From positions 1 through 64,000 of the forward strand of contig CAIKEH010000055.1 of assembly GCA_903826405.1 (NCBI GenBank): a stretch of DNA of 64,000 nucleotides, in the 5' to 3' direction. The translations under genes were made by a program, and so were the position numbers. Positions 5,179-30,407 of the stretch are shown in pieces. Within the stretch, counting starts at the first letter, position 1, and every line of letters starts with the position of its first letter. This DNA is from an uncultured bacterium (GTDB lineage Bacteria > Bacteroidota > Bacteroidia > Chitinophagales > Chitinophagaceae). The notes below the pieces were generated by a model that saw nothing but the letters and a program-made list of their open reading frames with translations, ran no database searches and had not been told where the DNA came from.

Positions 5179-8013
5179 TCAATGTGCTTCCAGCCAATTG
5201 TCGCCCATTCCCGCCTCAGCGATGACAGGAACGTCATTGGGCAGGGGAAGTGCGGCCTGCATACCTTCCAACACCAAAGTCTTCAGTTCGTCGGATTCAG
5301 CCTTGATGACATCGAAGACGAGTTCATCATGCACCTGCATGATCATCCGACTTTTCATGCCGGCCCTCTTCATGTCATGATGAATGCGCACCATGGCCAT
5401 TTTGATCATGTCTGCCGCCGTTCCCTGTATCGGTGAGTTGATGGCATTTCTTTCAGCAAATCCCCGAACGGTGAAATTAGCGCTATTGATATCTCGCAGC
5501 CAGCGTTTCCGTCCCATCAGGGTTTGCACAAAACCCTTTTCACGGGCGATCGCGACTGTATCATCCATGTATCTGGTAATCCCGGGGAATTCCTTCTTGT
5601 AGTTGTCAATGATGGTCTTGGCCTCGGCGCGGCTGATGCCCAGATTATCGGCGAGTCCGAACGCGCCCTGACCATAGATGATACCGAAGTTGACGCTCTT
5701 TGCCTTGTAACGCATTTCCTTGGTGACCTCTTTTTCTTCCACTCCGTACACCTTGGCTGCCGTAGCGGTATGGATATCCTTTCCTGAACGGAAGGCGTCA
5801 CACATATTGAGATCCCCGCTGATTGCTGCAACGATCCGGAGTTCGATCTGGGAATAGTCTGCGGAGAGGAGGATGTGATCCTTGTCGCGGGCGATGAACG
5901 CCTTTCGGATCTCCTTACCCCTTTCCGTCCTCACAGGGATGTTCTGCAGGTTGGGGTTATTACTTGCCAAGCGACCTGTTACTGCAACGGCCTGCCCATA
6001 GGTGGTATGTACCCTTCCGGTCTTAGAGTTGATGAGTTGTGGAAGAGCGTCCACATAGGTGCTGCGCAATTTGGTCAGTTCACGGTAGGTAAGGATGTCT
6101 TCCACTATACCACTTTGGTGTGCCAGTTTGAGCAGGACATCTTCTCCGGTGGCGTATTGACCAGTCTTGGTTTTTTTCGCCTTGGGATCGAGCTGGAGTT
6201 TATCGAATAATACCTCACCGAGTTGCTTTGGCGAGGAGAGATTGAAACGAACGCCTGCCTGTTTGTACACGCTTTCTTCTGCAATTTTGGCATCTTTCTC
6301 CAACTGAAATGAATATTCTTTCAGGAACTGCTCGTCGATGCGCACCCCTTCATATTCCATGTCCGTGAGTACTTTGACCAATGGGTTCTCGACTTCATAG
6401 AATACCCTTTCCACATCCTTTTCCTTGAGTTTGGGCAGGAAGATATTCTTCAGTTGAAGTGTGATGTCAGCATCTTCTCCGGCATATTCCTTGATGCGTT
6501 CAGGTTCTACGTCACGCATGGTTCCCTGATTCTTACCTTTCTTCCCTATCAGTTCCTCAATGTGGACCGGTTCGTATCCGAGGTATTGGGCACTGAGCAT
6601 ATCCATACTTCTTTTCCCTTCCGGCTCGATGACATAGTGGGCCAACATGGTGTCGAAGAGTTTGCCGGCAAGTGTATGGCCATACCATTTGAGGATGAGC
6701 AGATCGTATTTGATGTTCTGTCCGATCCAAGTTCTCCCTTCATCCTTGAAAAGAGAACCGAATCTCGCGAGAATGGTTTTGGTCTCCACCTGATCTGGTG
6801 GGCATGGGACATACCAGGCTTCTCCGGACCTGATAGAGAAGCTCATCCCCACGATTTCTGCATTGTTCGCATCTATTCCTGTGGTCTCCGTATCGAAGCA
6901 GATCTCTTTGGAAAGTGAAAGTGTTTTCACCAGCGCATCGATTGCATCCTGACCCTGTACAAGTTCGTAGTGATGAGGGGTGTTTGTTATGTTCCTGTCT
7001 GCAGATGGGCTGTCGTTATTCTCTTCTGGAGGGGATGAGGCAAGGGTAGAAGGAGCAGCAGATGATACCGGATTTCCGAAAAGATCCTGTTGCACCCCTG
7101 CCGTAGCTTTTTCCACCTGAGGGTTGGCGACAGCGATCTCCTCGCCCAATATTCTCTTGCCGAGGGTTCGGAATTCAAGCGCTGCGAAAACATCCCTCAG
7201 GGCATCCTTATTTATTTCTTTGACACTGAAATCCTCTTCGTGGAAGGTGACCGGCGAATTCGTGATGATGGTCGCGAGTTTCTTGCTCATGATGGCTAAG
7301 TCCTTCCCGTTGCGGACTTTTTCTCCCACTGCTCCTTTGATATTATCGGCATTGGCCAATATATTTTCCAGGGTACCGTATTCCGAAAGAAGTTTTGCAG
7401 CGGTCTTTTCTCCTACACCGGGTATGCCCGGGATATTGTCCACGCTGTCACCCATCAATCCCAGCATATCGATCACCTGTGAAACTTCCCTGATATTCCA
7501 CTTGGCACAAACCTCAGCAGGCCCGAGGATCTCGAAATCACCACCTTGATAAGGAGGTTTGAAGATCTTGATGTTCTCAGAAACGAGTTGTCCATAGTCC
7601 TTATCGGGAGTGACCATGTAAACTTGGTAGCCAGCCTTCTCTGCTTGTTTGGCCAGCGTACCGATGACATCATCGGCCTCAAAGCCATGCTTCTCGATGA
7701 TGGGGATGTTGAACCCCTCGATCAACCTGCGTATATCGGGCAGGGAAGCAAGCAGGTCTTCAGGGGCTTCCTGTCGGTTGGCCTTGTAATCAGCAAAATC
7801 TGTGTGTCTTTCCGTTGGTTCAGCGGTGTCAAAGCAGATGGCCATGTGTGTAGGCTTCTGCTTGCTGAGCAGGTCGACAAGTGCATTGGTAAATCCGAAC
7901 TGGGCATTCGTGTTCTTCCCCTGGCTGGTGATCCTCGGGCTCCGGATCAGCGCATAGTACGCCCTGAAGATGAGGGCGAATGCATCCAGCAGGAAAAGTC
8001 TTTTATCATCCAT
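5179..8013 (-). CDS. polA: DNA polymerase I
   Basis: The full-length enzyme (944 residues) fills gaps and removes RNA primers in replication and repair. Residues 1-290 are the 5'-3' exonuclease (DAFALIFRAYYAL, EADDVIGTLA, GVGEKTA). Near residue 370 the 3'-5' proofreading domain begins with CFDTETTG, which keeps the metal-binding D and E, so proofreading is probably active. The polymerase has motif A (DYSQIELRIVAA), motif B (RYKAKSVNFGIIYGQ) and motif C (QVHDELVFDV). The C-terminal Klenow part is typical for Bacteroidota. It sits in a minus-strand run with the esterase upstream and the hydroxylase downstream. Confidence 0.97.
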   Translation of the reverse strand: MDDKRLFLLDAFALIFRAYYALIRSPRITSQGKNTNAQFGFTNALVDLLSKQKPTHMAICFDTAEPTERHTDFADYKANRQEAPEDLLASLPDIRRLIEGFNIPIIEKHGFEADDVIGTLAKQAEKAGYQVYMVTPDKDYGQLVSENIKIFKPPYQGGDFEILGPAEVCAKWNIREVSQVIDMLGLMGDSVDNIPGIPGVGEKTAAKLLSEYGTLENILANADNIKGAVGEKVRNGKDLAIMSKKLATIITNSPVTFHEEDFSVKEINKDALRDVFAALEFRTLGKRILGEEIAVANPQVEKATAGVQQDLFGNPVSSAAPSTLASSPPEENNDSPSADRNITNTPHHYELVQGQDAIDALVKTLSLSKEICFDTETTGIDANNAEIVGMSFSIRSGEAWYVPCPPDQVETKTILARFGSLFKDEGRTWIGQNIKYDLLILKWYGHTLAGKLFDTMLAHYVIEPEGKRSMDMLSAQYLGYEPVHIEELIGKKGKNQGTMRDVEPERIKEYAGEDADITLQLKNIFLPKLKEKDVERVFYEVENPLVKVLTDMEYEGVRIDEQFLKEYSFQLEKDAKIAEESVYKQAGVRFNLSSPKQLGEVLFDKLQLDPKAKKTKTGQYATGEDVLLKLAHQSGIVEDILTYRELTKLRSTYVDALPQLINSKTGRVHTTYGQAVAVTGRLASNNPNLQNIPVRTERGKEIRKAFIARDKDHILLSADYSQIELRIVAAISGDLNMCDAFRSGKDIHTATAAKVYGVEEKEVTKEMRYKAKSVNFGIIYGQGAFGLADNLGISRAEAKTIIDNYKKEFPGITRYMDDTVAIAREKGFVQTLMGRKRWLRDINSANFTVRGFAERNAINSPIQGTAADMIKMAMVRIHHDMKRAGMKSRMIMQVHDELVFDVIKAESDELKTLVLEGMQAALPLPNDVPVIAEAGMGDNWLEAH

Positions 8014-20406: not shown

Positions 20407-20955
20407 TCAGTAGACGGTGTCATATGTTTTAAGGAACTCGTCCAGACGGATGCCTGCGACCTGCTTTTTCTGGGGGATGGCAAGAGACGGGCTCATTTCA
20501 GGGATCATCTTACGGATGTCCCTGCCACCATTGGGGTTTGCATCGGCGAATCGCCATTCCCGTCCATTGGTGGAAATGCCTACGAGGTGTGAGACCACGC
20601 TGATATAATTACCTTGATAGAGGATCTCTGACAACTGTTCCACAAGGCATTGCATGGGCTTTTCACCAGGAAGTACCCTGAGTATACGGCCCGCCCGGAC
20701 AACACTGAATGACAGGTCCTTCAGGGACGAGACCTGATTTTCGACAAAATTGGCGAAACTCTCTTCTCCCCCTACCATTCCAACAAGGGTAGCGTTATTA
20801 TAGGTTGTGAATGTCCTGAAATCCTTCCGTGTGAAAGCAGCGGTCATGCTATCTGCAGCTTCACGAATGAAGGGTACCAGAGAGGCGGAATCGGTTTGCG
20901 CTTTCGAAGATGCTGGAAGTGCAATGAGGCAAATAAAAAGTATCCGTTGATACAT
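20407..20955 (-). CDS. Small secreted protein, unknown function
   Basis: This 182-residue protein has a signal peptide (MYQRILFICLIALPASSKAQ). The mature part has a helix followed by beta segments (AAFTRKDFRTFTTYNNATLVGMVGG), which hints at an NTF2-like fold without proof. I recognise no catalytic residues. The start is the ATG at 20955; a TTG two codons earlier is possible. It lies upstream of the TetR gene on the same strand, but the 131-base gap contains the TetR promoter, so they are probably separate units. Confidence 0.6.
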   Translation of the reverse strand: MYQRILFICLIALPASSKAQTDSASLVPFIREAADSMTAAFTRKDFRTFTTYNNATLVGMVGGEESFANFVENQVSSLKDLSFSVVRAGRILRVLPGEKPMQCLVEQLSEILYQGNYISVVSHLVGISTNGREWRFADANPNGGRDIRKMIPEMSPSLAIPQKKQVAGIRLDEFLKTYDTVY

Positions 20956-22945: not shown

Positions 22946-24658
22946 TCATCTTCCCATCCCTGCTATGACCACTCTGGTCCGGTAAACTTTCCTGATCCCT
23001 TTGCGATTGAAGGCATCTGCTACCAGTATGTAAGGGCCGTATCCTGGGTGTTGCCTATCTTCATTCAAGCCATCCCACCGAAATGCACCCTCGGTCCCAC
23101 AGAGTGAATTACTGCAAATGCATCTGATCAGGTTGCCGGCCATGTCGTATACTGAGACCGTTGCACTCCATCCTGACTCCTGGAACCGATAATGGATGGT
23201 GAGGTAATCATCGCGACCATCCTGATCAGGCGAAAATATCTCTGGAGAAACTGTCCATTGCCCGTTTCCTTCGACAGAGCCCAGCGACTGAGAGTTTCGC
23301 CAAGTGGGGGTCGCATAACCCACATCCGCTGATGCGGAATGCCAGTTACCTGCATCCTGTGTGACAGCCTTAGGGTCGATGCGTTCCAATGCAACTCCTT
23401 CCGGGTCGTTGAGCAACGGGAAATGCCATCGTTCATCATAGTGCAGTTCATCCAGTACCGAACCCTGTCGATCGGTAATGAGGATGGTCCCTTCAGCATC
23501 AGGCATTGAAGGCATGTTCACTGGATCTGAAAGCAGTCTGGGTTCTTTAACCAGGAATGTATGCATGGTGATTTCTGGATCTTCGGAAACTACATAATGA
23601 TCACCCGGGAAGATCAAGAATGGTCGTGATGAACTGGCGATAAGGGACCTGATCATCCCCTGCACATTACGGCTTCCAATGTGGATCTGACCTGCATCAA
23701 TGATCGACTTCCCTGTATTCAGCAATTCCACATGATCCGTCCCTTCAGGCTTTGGATTGAAAAGGATCTCGTTGATGATCAATTCTCCCGGTTTTGGATC
23801 CTGTGCCAGTCCTGTTCGAATGGTGGAGAACGGCGGCACGGCATTGCCTGAGCAATCCATGACAGAAGTGACGGTCAATCTGTAGATCAGGTCTTTACGC
23901 AGGGGTTCGGAAAGAGCCAGTCGTATCGAGTTGAAGAAAGGGGGTAAGGGTTCCGCATTATTCACTACAAGTCCGTTGTCAAGTTGATAACGGTAAGGAA
24001 TACATGCAGTTTGGCTGTCCAGTGTCTTATCCATATCCAGCAATATGTGTAGGCTGTCAGGGGCATATGCTCCCTTTGCGTGTGGCGGATCCTCGTCCAC
24101 GATCGGGGCATATACGGAGTTCCTCTTTCCAGGGGTGCCCCCAGCGGGGTCGATGCTCGAGGTCCAGTTGGCATTACCCATGCAAGGCTTTGTGGGATCG
24201 ATCATTTCCAGGGACCACCCACCCTCGCCTTTCAATGTATTCCGATAGTCTTTTTTGGTATACCGTACTGCATGGATCGTCCGATGATCCGAAGTGAAAA
24301 GGGCAATGGTTGAACCTGCATCGGGCAGGGCGGGGAAGCCCGTCAGCGGCAATACGTTACCAAATTTCTTATAGGAAGCGGATGCTGATGCGCTACAAAC
24401 GATGACCATACTGTCGGGATCGAGGGTATATTCCTTCGATATCCTGATACTTGCCGCGCCGATCTCGATGAAGCAACCTTTCAGTGTGGCGGGTCTGCCG
24501 GATACATTTTGCAGTTCAAGAAAACTGCTGTTGGGCAAGCCTGCCGATGGTTCCGGGTCGGCAAGAATCTCCGTGATCAATACATCGTATCTACTGGGGA
24601 TCTGTGCCATCGACGGGGCTTTCAAAAGCAATAACAGAACGACTGATGTCCATTTCAC
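22946..24658 (-). CDS. Secreted protein with two lamin-tail domains
   Basis: This 570-residue exported protein has a signal peptide to about residue 18. Two lamin-tail domains open with VLITEILADPEPSAG (residues about 25-180) and ELIINEILFNPKPEG (about 290-450), separated by an Ig-like segment. The C-terminal 90 residues (SPDQDGRDDYLTIHYRF, then DMAGN, WDGLNEDRQHPGYGPYIL) form the FlgD/gliding-associated type of fold seen in many cell-surface proteins of this phylum. It may be anchored or secreted; no enzyme motif is seen. The start is GTG at 24658. Confidence 0.8.
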   Translation of the reverse strand: MKWTSVVLLLLLKAPSMAQIPSRYDVLITEILADPEPSAGLPNSSFLELQNVSGRPATLKGCFIEIGAASIRISKEYTLDPDSMVIVCSASASASYKKFGNVLPLTGFPALPDAGSTIALFTSDHRTIHAVRYTKKDYRNTLKGEGGWSLEMIDPTKPCMGNANWTSSIDPAGGTPGKRNSVYAPIVDEDPPHAKGAYAPDSLHILLDMDKTLDSQTACIPYRYQLDNGLVVNNAEPLPPFFNSIRLALSEPLRKDLIYRLTVTSVMDCSGNAVPPFSTIRTGLAQDPKPGELIINEILFNPKPEGTDHVELLNTGKSIIDAGQIHIGSRNVQGMIRSLIASSSRPFLIFPGDHYVVSEDPEITMHTFLVKEPRLLSDPVNMPSMPDAEGTILITDRQGSVLDELHYDERWHFPLLNDPEGVALERIDPKAVTQDAGNWHSASADVGYATPTWRNSQSLGSVEGNGQWTVSPEIFSPDQDGRDDYLTIHYRFQESGWSATVSVYDMAGNLIRCICSNSLCGTEGAFRWDGLNEDRQHPGYGPYILVADAFNRKGIRKVYRTRVVIAGMGR

Positions 24659-24710
24659 TAAGGCAAGTTCAATACATGATCGTTGGTGAGAAAGTCCATC
24701 CCAACATTTA

Positions 24711-24742
24711 TTTGGCAGAAAAAAACGCGGAATCTATTTTTG
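24711..24742 (+). promoter_or_regulatory. Promoter of the asd leader
   Basis: TTTG at 24711-24714, 20 bases, then TATTTTTG at 24735-24742. Both elements and the spacing match the Bacteroidota housekeeping promoter. Transcription should start near 24748-24750, about 170 bases before asd and almost on the leader-peptide ATG at 24751. Confidence 0.75.
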
Positions 24743-24750
24743 CAACCTGA

Positions 24751-24813
24751 ATGAACAAGATCATCAAGCATATGAAGCAAACCCAGAAACGTTCCTTAAA
24801 AGGGGAAGGTTGA
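24751..24813 (+). CDS. Leader peptide of the asd attenuator
   Basis: Twenty codons read MNKIIKHMKQTQKRSLKGEG and a TGA stop. Eight of the first nine residues (M, N, K, I, I, K, M, K) are amino acids made from aspartate, and the enzyme downstream makes aspartate semialdehyde. Its last codons cover the antiterminator strand 24803-24809, so a ribosome reaching the stop would block the antiterminator and let the terminator form. The first ATG lies only 1-3 bases after the expected transcription start; the in-frame ATG at 24772 is an alternative start. Translation is inferred. Confidence 0.55.
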   Translation: MNKIIKHMKQTQKRSLKGEG

Positions 24814-24843
24814 GGATGTTTTTCAGGAACAAACATATATCAG

Positions 24844-24869
24844 GCCTTCCCGGAACGGAAGGCTTTTTT
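24844..24869 (+). terminator. Intrinsic terminator upstream of asd
   Basis: GCCTTCC (24844-24850) and GGAAGGC (24857-24863) form a perfect 7-base-pair stem with a 6-base loop, followed by six T (24864-24869). It lies between the promoter and the asd gene, so it can only act as a conditional terminator or end a small RNA of about 120 bases. Confidence 0.85.
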
Positions 24870-24919
24870 ATTTCAACAACAATCTAAAACTTCCCATTGG
24901 GAAGAAGCAGGAGGGAAAC

Positions 24920-25927
24920 ATGAAAGTTGCAGTCGTCGGGGCTACCGGTCTGGTGGGTACCAAAATGTTACAGGTTCTGGCTGAAAGGAATTTTCCCGTG
25001 GATGAACTGATCCCCGTGGCCTCTGAAAAGTCCATTGGTAAAGAAGTGCTCTTCAAAGGGAAGGCATACAAGGTGGTCAGTGCGGATGATGCGATAGCCG
25101 CCAAACCGAACGTGGCCATTTTTTCCGCAGGAGGTAGCAGCTCCCTGGAACTGGCACCCCGTTTCGCCGCTGCCGGTATCACCGTCATCGATAATTCCTC
25201 CGCCTGGAGGATGGATCCCACGAAGAAGTTGGTCGTTCCGGAGATCAATGCTTCCACGCTCACGGCAGCGGACAAGATCATCGCCAATCCGAACTGTTCC
25301 ACCATTCAGATGGTGGTAGCGCTGTTTCCTTTGCACCAGCGTTATCGGATGAAACGCATTGTCGTATCCACCTATCAGAGTGTGACCGGAACGGGCAAGA
25401 AGGCGGTCGACCAGCTCATGGGTGAAAGAGAGAAGACCGTCAAAGGGTCAAGCGCGGAATACCCCATGGCATACAAATATCCTATCGACCTGAATGTGAT
25501 CCCTCAGATCGATGTGTTCCTGGATAACGGCTACACCAAGGAAGAGATGAAGATGGTCAACGAAACAAAGAAGATCATCGGCGACGATTCCATCCGCGTT
25601 ACAGCCACCACTGTTCGTATTCCCGTAATGGGAGGGCACAGCGAAAGCGTGAACGTGGAGTTCGCTCAGGATTTCGATCTGGCAGAAGTGCGTTCCATAC
25701 TAGAGAAAGCTCCTGGCGTCATGGTGGTGGATGATCCGGCAAATGCGAGATATCCCATGCCCAAGGACGCCCACGAGCGTGACGAGGTGTTCGTCGGCAG
25801 GATCCGTCGTGATGAATCTCAACCCAACACGCTCAACCTCTGGATCGTCTCGGATAACCTTCGTAAAGGTGCTGCGACGAATGCAGTTCAGATCGCTGAA
25901 TACCTCATGGGAAAAGGGATGCTTTGA
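24920..25927 (+). CDS. asd: Aspartate-semialdehyde dehydrogenase
   Basis: The enzyme (335 residues) reduces aspartyl phosphate to aspartate semialdehyde with NADPH, the branch point to lysine, diaminopimelate, threonine and methionine. The NADP-binding start is VAVVGATGLVGTKMLQVL, followed by FSAGGSSSLELAP and DNSSAWRMD. The catalytic cysteine lies in IIANPNCSTIQMVVALFPL (about residue 129), and the active-site histidine in RIPVMGGHSESVNVEF (about residue 240). Its start codon has a strong AGGAGG five bases upstream, rare in this phylum. It is preceded by the attenuator described above. Confidence 0.96.
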   Translation: MKVAVVGATGLVGTKMLQVLAERNFPVDELIPVASEKSIGKEVLFKGKAYKVVSADDAIAAKPNVAIFSAGGSSSLELAPRFAAAGITVIDNSSAWRMDPTKKLVVPEINASTLTAADKIIANPNCSTIQMVVALFPLHQRYRMKRIVVSTYQSVTGTGKKAVDQLMGEREKTVKGSSAEYPMAYKYPIDLNVIPQIDVFLDNGYTKEEMKMVNETKKIIGDDSIRVTATTVRIPVMGGHSESVNVEFAQDFDLAEVRSILEKAPGVMVVDDPANARYPMPKDAHERDEVFVGRIRRDESQPNTLNLWIVSDNLRKGAATNAVQIAEYLMGKGML

Positions 25928-26002
25928 TCAGGAGCCTGCCTGAATGCTCAAAGAAGTGAATTTGATCGGTCGGGTTCAGCCTATCTTTTTAGGCAGAGGA
26001 GT

Positions 26003-26668
26003 TCAATCCAGAGCGGAGTTGAGGAAGCCGATAAGGGGTTGCAAGGCGTTGAAGGCATCGAGTGTGATCTTTCGAAAGTCTTTCGACAGCAATTCCTTGT
26101 CGGTGACCTGCCTCATCGCGATATAGCTTTTCAACTTCAGGTATTCAGATGCGGGGTTATCCACCTCATATCCCTTGGGTAAGCGGGTGAGCAAGGTGTC
26201 ATCCCCCTTGTACAGTTCACCATACGCCTTCTTGAATTTCGCGGAACCCACGATCTTCTTGAAGTCCACAAAGCTGTAATCTATCTCCTGACGGATCTTG
26301 GCGAGTTCTGGAGGCATGGGCATCCAGACGCCTCCCCCGACGAAGGACCCACCGGGTTCCACATGGACATAATAACTGGCGAGGACCGATTTCTTACCGC
26401 CTCGGTTGATGGTGGCACCGAAATTGGTCTTGTACGGAGATTTGTCTTTGGAGAAACGGATATCGCGATTTATACGGAATAGGCAATTCTTCGACACTAT
26501 GCCGGCAAGACCATCATCTTTTTTAGCGTGTGTGTCGATGATATCCTGAAGGAAGATGATGAAATCAGCCTTGGCGCTTTCATAGCGCTTCCTGTTGACA
26601 TCGAACCAGGACTTATCGTTGTGCTTCTTCAATTCCCTGAGGAAGGCTAATGTTTGTTTCTGCAGCAT
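26003..26668 (-). CDS. DUF2461 family protein
   Basis: This 221-residue protein has the pattern of DUF2461: LAFLRELKKHNDKSWFDVNRKRYESAKADF at the start, RINRDIRFSKDKSPYKTNFGA near residue 70, a central YYVHVEPGGSFVGGGVWMP, and a lysine-rich end. It is widespread and cytoplasmic with no established function. The start is the ATG at 26668. It lies 60 bases downstream of the HNH gene on the same strand. Confidence 0.88.
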   Translation of the reverse strand: MLQKQTLAFLRELKKHNDKSWFDVNRKRYESAKADFIIFLQDIIDTHAKKDDGLAGIVSKNCLFRINRDIRFSKDKSPYKTNFGATINRGGKKSVLASYYVHVEPGGSFVGGGVWMPMPPELAKIRQEIDYSFVDFKKIVGSAKFKKAYGELYKGDDTLLTRLPKGYEVDNPASEYLKLKSYIAMRQVTDKELLSKDFRKITLDAFNALQPLIGFLNSALD

Positions 26669-29681: not shown

Positions 29682-30407
29682 ATGCCCCAACCGAGTACAA
29701 AGCCGAACATCAATACCTCATTGATGGAACTCATGCCCGAGTTCCAATTCGCCGTCTCGGTGGACTGCGTGATCTTTGGTTTCGATGAGAACGTACTCAA
29801 GGTATTGCTCATCAAGAGTGATCTTGAAGCTTTTCGGGAAAAATGGTCTTTACTGGGCGACCTTGTACAGCCCGATGAGGGTTTGGACGAGGCTTCCTAT
29901 AGGGTATTGACAGAGCGAACAGGCCTGGATACCCTTTATCTGGAGCAGGTGCACACGTTTGGCGCGGTCCACCGCCATCCGGCAGGGCGCGTGGTCAGTA
30001 CGGCTTATTATTGTTTGGTCAACATCAAGCATACCCAACTCACGCAACTCGGAAACGAGCTGCATTGGCATCCTGTGAAGGACATCGCTACCATGGCCTT
30101 CGATCACAAGAAGATCCTGGATACCTGCTACAGTACTTTGAAGAAGAAGATACAAGAGGAGCCGATCATCTTCAATCTGCTGGAACGGAAATTCTCGCTT
30201 CGTGAATTACAGAACCTCTACGAGGCCATTCTCGATGTCAAGCTCGACCGCAGGAATTTCAGGAAGAAGCTTTTTTCAACCGGATTGCTCACCGATCTTA
30301 ATGAGATGGAGAGGAATGTTCCCCACAGGCCAGGCAAACTCTATACGTTCAACCATGAGGCCTACTATCAAATGCGGAAGAAAGCCTTCTCGGGTATCCG
30401 TTTCTGA
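29682..30407 (+). CDS. NrtR-type transcriptional regulator with degenerate Nudix domain
   Basis: This 241-residue protein has an N-terminal Nudix domain (residues 20-150) and a C-terminal winged helix (about 160-230, with FSLRELQNLYEAIL and RRNFRKKLFSTGLL), the layout of NrtR-like regulators. In the Nudix box, the REUxEE signature reads RVLTER: two of three glutamates needed for metal binding and hydrolysis are lost. It is therefore more likely a ligand sensor than a hydrolase. In this phylum relatives control sugar and NAD genes; the adjacent LacI and Sus genes are plausible targets. Confidence 0.85.
   Translation: MPQPSTKPNINTSLMELMPEFQFAVSVDCVIFGFDENVLKVLLIKSDLEAFREKWSLLGDLVQPDEGLDEASYRVLTERTGLDTLYLEQVHTFGAVHRHPAGRVVSTAYYCLVNIKHTQLTQLGNELHWHPVKDIATMAFDHKKILDTCYSTLKKKIQEEPIIFNLLERKFSLRELQNLYEAILDVKLDRRNFRKKLFSTGLLTDLNEMERNVPHRPGKLYTFNHEAYYQMRKKAFSGIRF

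Follow-up and report, generated by a model that had tools for sequence, protein, structure and literature searches.

A probable lysine-sensing, ribosome-mediated transcription attenuator in the asd leader of a Bacteroidota family

The stretch of DNA which we have analysed, called here the window, has a length of 64,000 nt. It contains a gene for aspartate-semialdehyde dehydrogenase, asd, which is recognized by NCBIfam TIGR01296 with 438 bits, above the cut-off. The nearest long frame upstream (22946–24658) is found on the minus strand; it is divergent from asd, so that the region 24743–24920 is the leader of asd itself. Its elements are collected in Table 1. A promoter, a frame of 20 codons, an antiterminator of 7 bp and a terminator with six T had all been proposed by the first-pass annotation and are present at the positions it gave. 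Only the spacer of the promoter has to be corrected, from 20 to 21 nt. We assign this promoter to the Bacteroidota type by the consensus of its -7 box; transcription would start a few bases 5' of the leader ATG. The antiterminator rests on GGGAAGG (24803–24809), which is fully complementary to CCTTCCC (24845–24851). The 1:2 protector hairpin, and a longer protector stem found in relatives, were absent from that annotation.

Table 1. Elements of the asd leader and the gene downstream, in window coordinates
Feature	Position	Strand	Basis
Promoter, Bacteroidota type: TTTG 24711–24714, 21 nt, TATTTTTG 24736–24743	24711..24743	+	sequence
Leader peptide frame MNKIIKHMKQTQKRSLKGEG, 20 codons, ATG 24751, stop TGA 24811–24813	24751..24813	+	
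Outer protector strand A (AAGCAU), partner 24816–24821 (AUGUUU)	24766..24771	+	duplex energy; covariation in relatives
Region 1, partner 24802–24807 (1:2 protector hairpin)	24792..24797	+	folding energy
Region 2, antiterminator 5' strand, within the final leader codons and stop	24803..24813	+	sequence, folding
Strand A' 24816–24821; in the antiterminator state, inner hairpin with 24831–24836	24816..24836	+	folding
Region 3: antiterminator 3' strand (24840–24842, 24844–24851) and terminator 5' arm (24842–24850)	24840..24851	+	
Intrinsic terminator: stem 24842–24850 / 24857–24865, T tract 24864–24869	24842..24869	+	
asd, regulated gene	24920..25927	+	NCBIfam TIGR01296

The entire antiterminator (24803–24851) has a folding energy of -19.2 kcal/mol (z -3.69), and none of 200 shuffled sequences is equally stable. 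The terminator (-13.9 kcal/mol) is equalled by 3 of 200 shuffles and the 1:2 hairpin (-6.1 kcal/mol) by 5 of 200; for the stretch 24780–24880 taken whole, z is -2.33, again with 5 of 200 shuffles. The outer protector duplex is weak in the window copy: -5.6 kcal/mol, versus a mean of -10.6 in 55 leaders. This copy is degenerate in other features too: it has five Lys in 20 residues, and Met in the place of Thr. Scans with consensus sequences do not exceed chance by number, with one promoter versus 1.6 expected and three terminators versus 1.7. It is by conservation, rather than by such counts, that we judge the element to be real. The T tract is also followed, ahead of the asd ATG, by a CCC-loop-GGG stretch, at 24890–24904 in the window; this stretch is found in 25 of 69 leaders, often with a GNRA-like loop.

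In order to describe the distribution of the device we compared 169 asd upstream regions with a placed start. They come from 99 related genomes, 90 of them with an asd match, and from named GTDB genomes, represented by the best 80 of at least 595 loci. The device was found by pattern in 69 of these regions. As the first-pass annotation had expected, frame, terminator and alternative pairing are kept in relatives: this is the case for 35 of 37 asd genes in the genus of the window and for 12 of the 18 which come from the family's other genera. A cultured species, Niastella yeongjuensis DSM 17621, is among the carriers (L091). Loss of the device from a kept gene, which that annotation had counted against itself, is seen in the remaining two and six, and in all 34 asd genes of other families, none of which has the device. 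In L061, which is among the six, the bases at this place are masked. Among the 80 named loci the device is found in 22 by pattern, or 23 with L099, which was seen by eye. The two asd genes of the same genus which have neither attenuator nor terminator (L019 and L032) have a promoter of the same type, whose end lies 7 bases upstream of the asd ATG; it looks as though the complete leader had been excised.

A covariance model of the leader (R1) matches 171 of 244 genomes of the family, in 77 of 101 genera (E <= 0.01). When 198 genomes of the order were searched, 31 matched at E <= 0.001; the only one outside the family was G080, with E 9.7e-4. In 296 genomes of the phylum there were 14 matches, eight in the family and six outside, the latter with E from 9.1e-5 to 1e-3. 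Five of these six have no leader and are apparently plain terminators. The sixth, L237 (G495:C11), is found before ilvD in another family of the phylum: it has a short frame rich in Ile, Val and Thr, MITHTTITVIINVIGTKYRPGK, and a CCTTCC terminator, and its score with the Rfam Thr_leader is 35.6 bits, below the cut-off of 55. The window's own genome has five weaker matches (E 0.62 to 9.3); three of them, L172–L174, were inspected and have no such leader. From the counts we have left out L089, where the asd start was not found, L170, a chance terminator, ten near-duplicates, and L003, L016, L120 and L130, in which the block described below was unplaced or below the score limit. L100 was left out of alignment A1 only. 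The DNA available upstream is short in L106 (46 bases) and L101 (236 bases).

The 55 non-redundant leaders have in common a block of amino acids, K-H-T-K-[KR]-x-K-K. Lys is found at block positions 1, 4, 7 and 8 in 50, 51, 46 and 48 of the 55 leaders, respectively, His and Thr in 42 each. The Lys codons are exchanged between AAA and AAG: at position 7 there are 33 AAG and 13 AAA. Among 343 pairs of block sequences with one to six differences, 1571 differences were counted, distributed as 222, 423 and 926 over the three codon positions. We take the leader frame to be under coding constraint. Lys accounts for 26.7% of the leader residues, versus 14.9% after shuffling of the bases, so that it is partly favoured by an A-rich sequence. 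The residues ahead of the block behave differently. It had been remarked that eight of the first nine residues in the window copy derive from aspartate, and the count is right; it does not extend to relatives, where Met, Asn and Ile are variable and only Lys is kept.

We looked for a -7 box in 67 leaders and found it in all but seven. Of these 60 boxes, 57 end 5–10 nt before the leader ATG, and the frame is therefore probably leaderless. Two leaders lack an ATG close to the promoter: that of L003 gives VNCYKHTKQAKKRFRNGKV when read from a GTG, and L013 has an in-frame GTG together with more distant ATG codons.

Besides the 2:3 and 3:4 pairings, in the relatives the codons for H-T-K of the block (strand A) pair with bases just 3' of the stop codon (A'), which gives the longer protector stem. 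Unguided RNAalifold on alignment A1 (54 sequences) returns only the terminator; we therefore specified the pairings on a single sequence and counted them against controls, and the protector stems rest on this specified structure. It is paired in 79.5% of the cells, versus 74.4 in shuffles, and 96 cells are changed on both sides, versus 49.6; none of 500 shuffles reaches either value. Pairs with a change on both sides are 18 of 26, versus 13.4 (6 of 500 shuffles). Further pair types (47 versus 42.2, 31 of 500 shuffles) are not clearly beyond chance, as one slid version of the structure has 49. In general the slid versions have 38.0–56.9% of their cells paired and 38–63 cells changed on both sides.

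Covariation is found in the outer protector stems (helices 1 and 2). An example pair in the outer helix is UA in 23 sequences, UG in 13 and CG in 10. In the inner helix 2, which is paired in only 51.5% of the cells, an example pair is GC in 17, CG in 8, UA in 6 and GU in 3. The 2:3 pairing has no covariation beyond shuffles in this alignment, but it is retained: 92.3% of its cells are paired in the 54 sequences, versus 38.7–68.3% in slid controls. Its support lies in this retention and in L099, the asd leader of a Flavihumibacter MAG, where we have seen by eye that regions 2, 3 and 4 have changed jointly (GGGGCU, GGCCCCGAC and GUCGGGGC) while the peptide MIIMKHTKRTKKPS is kept. The 1:2 hairpin (helix 3) is paired in 77.8% of the cells; a synonymous-codon test favours it weakly (13 of 15, mean z -0.57), and it appears less well supported than the outer stems.

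The pairing of block and A' was also examined independently of the alignment. With uniform codon choice, the native codons pair more strongly than random synonymous ones do on average in 54 of 55 leaders, and with pooled choice in 52 of 55; among the single synonymous versions, 16% and 21%, respectively, equal or exceed the native stability. With its own A' partner a block has a mean of -10.6 kcal/mol, versus -7.4 with swapped partners, and the own partner is better in 46 of 55 leaders.

Since these stems covary and sit within the frame, one might think of a structured RNA, either a riboswitch or a protein site, in which the frame is accidental. We regard this as very improbable: the third codon positions change most (926 of 1571), Lys is kept through exchange of AAA and AAG, the spacing between -7 box and ATG varies little, and no Rfam family is found at curated score in the window leader nor in 14 further loci. 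It is also true that the terminator (helix 4) is the best conserved helix, with 95.8% of its cells paired, as it might be in a plain terminator or insulator which has no conditional read-through. Such an element is hardly credible here. The terminator sits between asd and its promoter while the gene upstream is divergent, L019 and L032 have no terminator and the same type of promoter right at asd, and region 2, which competes with region 4, has been conserved.

The behaviour of the leader with respect to ribosome position was studied in the 55 leaders by placing a ribosome at each codon and folding the RNA downstream, in a transcript which ends before region 4. This sweep describes equilibrium and not kinetics, and assumes a ribosome edge located 12 bases beyond the first base of the A-site codon. 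The probability of the antiterminator, P(2:3), is 0.98–0.99 whichever block codon occupies the A site; it falls to 0.85, 0.51 and 0.22 at the three codons after it and is 0.02 at the stop codon. The last conserved Lys is therefore found just before the switch point. For the window copy the value stays at 1.00 through codon 14 and is 0.32 at codon 16. Four of its five Lys codons (3, 6, 9 and 13) are in the stall-sensitive part, in which a halted ribosome releases the antiterminator; codon 17 lies outside it. Without ribosome P(2:3) has a mean of 0.65, with variation between leaders, and is 1.00 in the window copy, so that the protector alone leaves many copies on at equilibrium.

From the elements, their conservation and covariation and this equilibrium folding we infer a start site, translation, stalling and a response to lysine, as follows. 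RNA polymerase would begin the transcript only a few bases ahead of the leader ATG, and a ribosome would translate the lysine-rich leader. When lysyl-tRNA is scarce, the ribosome would stall at the Lys codons of the block, over one or both protector strands, and leave region 2 free; region 2 would then form the 2:3 antiterminator, keep region 3 from region 4, and asd would be transcribed. When lysyl-tRNA is plentiful, the ribosome would arrive at the stop codon and cover region 2, the 3:4 terminator would form and transcription would end before asd. If no ribosome is present, region 2 would be paired with region 1, and the block codons with the sequence that follows the stop; these pairings would keep region 2 closed in part of the family.

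The genes downstream tell which amino acid may be the signal. We selected 20 matches of the covariance model, mostly from genomes with two strong matches: 12 precede asd and eight precede dapA (NCBIfam TIGR00674). Among the best 30 loci in genomes with at least two matches, 20 are found before asd, five before hisG, one before dapA and one before an aspartate kinase gene; the other three are before none of these, and one of them sits at a contig end. Altogether the Lys leader is found before dapA in nine distinct places, with a closely similar block, for example KKHTKQVKKHS. In one genome a weaker match precedes aspartate kinase, with the leader MQIKKHNKMMKCITRR. The dapA and aspartate kinase genes of the window's own genome have no Lys leader, and a pattern scan of 30 upstream regions of each gene gave one leader for dapA and none for aspartate kinase. 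The product of dapA goes to diaminopimelate and lysine, and lysine is therefore the signal which fits these genes. The signal is most likely the charging of lysyl-tRNA.

The first-pass annotation had proposed an aspartate-family attenuator; such a leader would read the charging of Met, Asn, Ile, Thr and Lys together, as asd makes a common precursor. The asd product does feed several amino acids of the aspartate family, the composition of the first nine residues in the window copy agrees with it, and 42 of 55 leaders retain Thr. We consider it unlikely all the same and prefer lysine alone. The residues ahead of the block are variable, the Thr codon belongs to the covarying protector stem, and the same block, with its Thr codon, is found before dapA. 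Furthermore the window's own genome has a separate frame, rich in Thr and Ile, before a gene for a bifunctional aspartate kinase/homoserine dehydrogenase: it is L332 (G000:C52, gene at 7659; NCBIfam NF006959, 1017 bits), with the frame MEMRFSSGNIRTTTTAASVCISTRFTITIPTNIITTR and no evident terminator.

The conservation of the block could have a different meaning. In leaders of the TnaC and SpeFL type it is the nascent chain which arrests the ribosome. A nascent chain K-H-T-K-[KR]-x-K-K, perhaps together with free lysine or another ligand, might halt it here in the same way, rather than an empty A site. The residue pattern is strongly kept, including His and Thr, and stalls are required only within the block. 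Against this, the His and Thr codons are explained by the pairing with A', leaders of similar build before hisG use runs of His, and in the window copy the pattern is broken (KHMKQTQK) and yet terminator and antiterminator are kept. An arrest peptide appears improbable to us, and we retain the sensing of lysyl-tRNA.

This leader has those features of a trp-type attenuator which can be read from sequence and folding. Promoter, short translatable frame and intrinsic terminator stand in this order before the gene; the 2:3 antiterminator uses the 5' arm of the terminator and is kept in relatives; and leader codons pair as protectors with region 2 or its flank. The control codons are placed where a stalled ribosome frees region 2 and a ribosome at the stop codon covers it, and the probable control amino acid, Lys, is a product of the pathway of the genes downstream (asd, dapA and one aspartate kinase). 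Covariation, retention of 2:3 and the low P(2:3) at the stop codon bear out the earlier proposal of a ribosome-mediated attenuation of asd, in which a finished ribosome allows the terminator. We conclude with good confidence that the asd leader is a trp-type transcription attenuator which senses lysine.

Leaders of similar build before hisG, with runs of His codons, are also found in the genus of the window and in its own genome. The latter, L274 (G000:C41, hisG at 20771), has the frame MKRTEHIHHHHFLP, region 2 GGTAAGCC and the terminator GGGCTTAC / GTGAGCC followed by a T tract. In 26 hisG leaders, picked for at least three His, the same sweep gives a P(2:3) of 0.94 as far as the first codon after the last His, which then drops to 0.74 and 0.34 and is 0.17 at the stop: the turn comes two to three codons past the last His. 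The hisG matches to the model are weak (E 1.7e-4 to 1.9e-3), and for this reason we do not claim a common descent of Lys and His leaders. The contig of L274 has another short leader, L336, before a trpE-like gene at 29882: its frame MTNLIANKIWWWHTKS has three Trp codons and is followed by a GGCCCC...GGGGCC terminator. It scores 28.6 bits with the Rfam Trp_leader, below the cut-off of 41.

A wider interpretation, to which we give only a small chance, is that a lysine-attenuator cassette with a leaderless peptide has been copied before asd, dapA and perhaps aspartate kinase. Its codons would have two roles, the sensing of lysine and the formation of the protector stem; arrest by the nascent peptide of the strongly kept block may be a further contribution. 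If this is true, the cassette does in this family what lysine riboswitches do elsewhere.

The trpL, hisL and thrL leaders of E. coli are leader-peptide attenuators, and E. coli leader peptides have a ribosome-binding site. The asd leader resembles the trp and his type attenuators of Proteobacteria in its frame with control codons, its 1:2, 2:3 and 3:4 pairings and its terminator before a biosynthetic gene. Unlike those represented in Rfam by Trp_leader, Thr_leader and Phe_leader, it appears to sense lysine and has a different sequence; the best Rfam score in the window is that of Phe_leader, 22.6 bits versus a cut-off of 55. Unlike the E. coli leaders, its ATG lies 5–10 nt past the -7 box and it is probably leaderless. 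RNA control of lysine-pathway genes is also exerted by the lysine riboswitch (L-box) and the lysine T-box, which bind lysine and tRNA-Lys, respectively, in a direct way. For these two, Rfam gives no match at gathering threshold in the whole window, nor at E up to 10 in 24400–26100. The Rfam asd motif (RF01732) has no match in the window either, and the matches of the window and of the 14 further loci do not include the Bacteroid-trp motif (RF01692).

RF01732, from Lactobacillales, and an attenuator-like sequence before asd in S. mutans are, by name, elements preceding asd (PMC2864571), in a phylum different from that of the window. By its name RF01692, a proposed cis-regulatory RNA of Bacteroidota, belongs to trp genes (PMC2864571). 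In the same phylum, strong clues of leader-peptide attenuation before operons for amino acid biosynthesis have been presented for Flavobacterium psychrophilum; the part of that paper cited here does not name a lysine gene (PMC9723704). In the survey by Seliverstov et al. (2005), as far as the part cited here extends, attenuators are listed for histidine, threonine and phenylalanine, and L-box riboswitches for lysine (PMC1262725). According to the part cited of Naville and Gautheret (2010), no leader-peptide system was known beyond Proteobacteria and Actinobacteria before their own case in Firmicutes, with the exception of the atypical ermC (PMC2965389). General context on attenuation is found in portions of PMC7366714, PMC4833913 and PMC2659441.

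Within a partial set of openly licensed literature we have found no description of a lysine leader-peptide attenuator, and for this family little is described there on leader-peptide attenuation. Most likely lysine is a new specificity of a known type of control. Natural pairs for a test are offered by genomes which have the device and genomes which lack it, and by the hisG leaders of similar build, which would read another amino acid. If our interpretation is right, the list of amino acids sensed through leader-peptide attenuation gains lysine, in a large part of one Bacteroidota family, and the device would be a starting point for predicting amino-acid regulons in bacteria which use few Shine-Dalgarno sequences.
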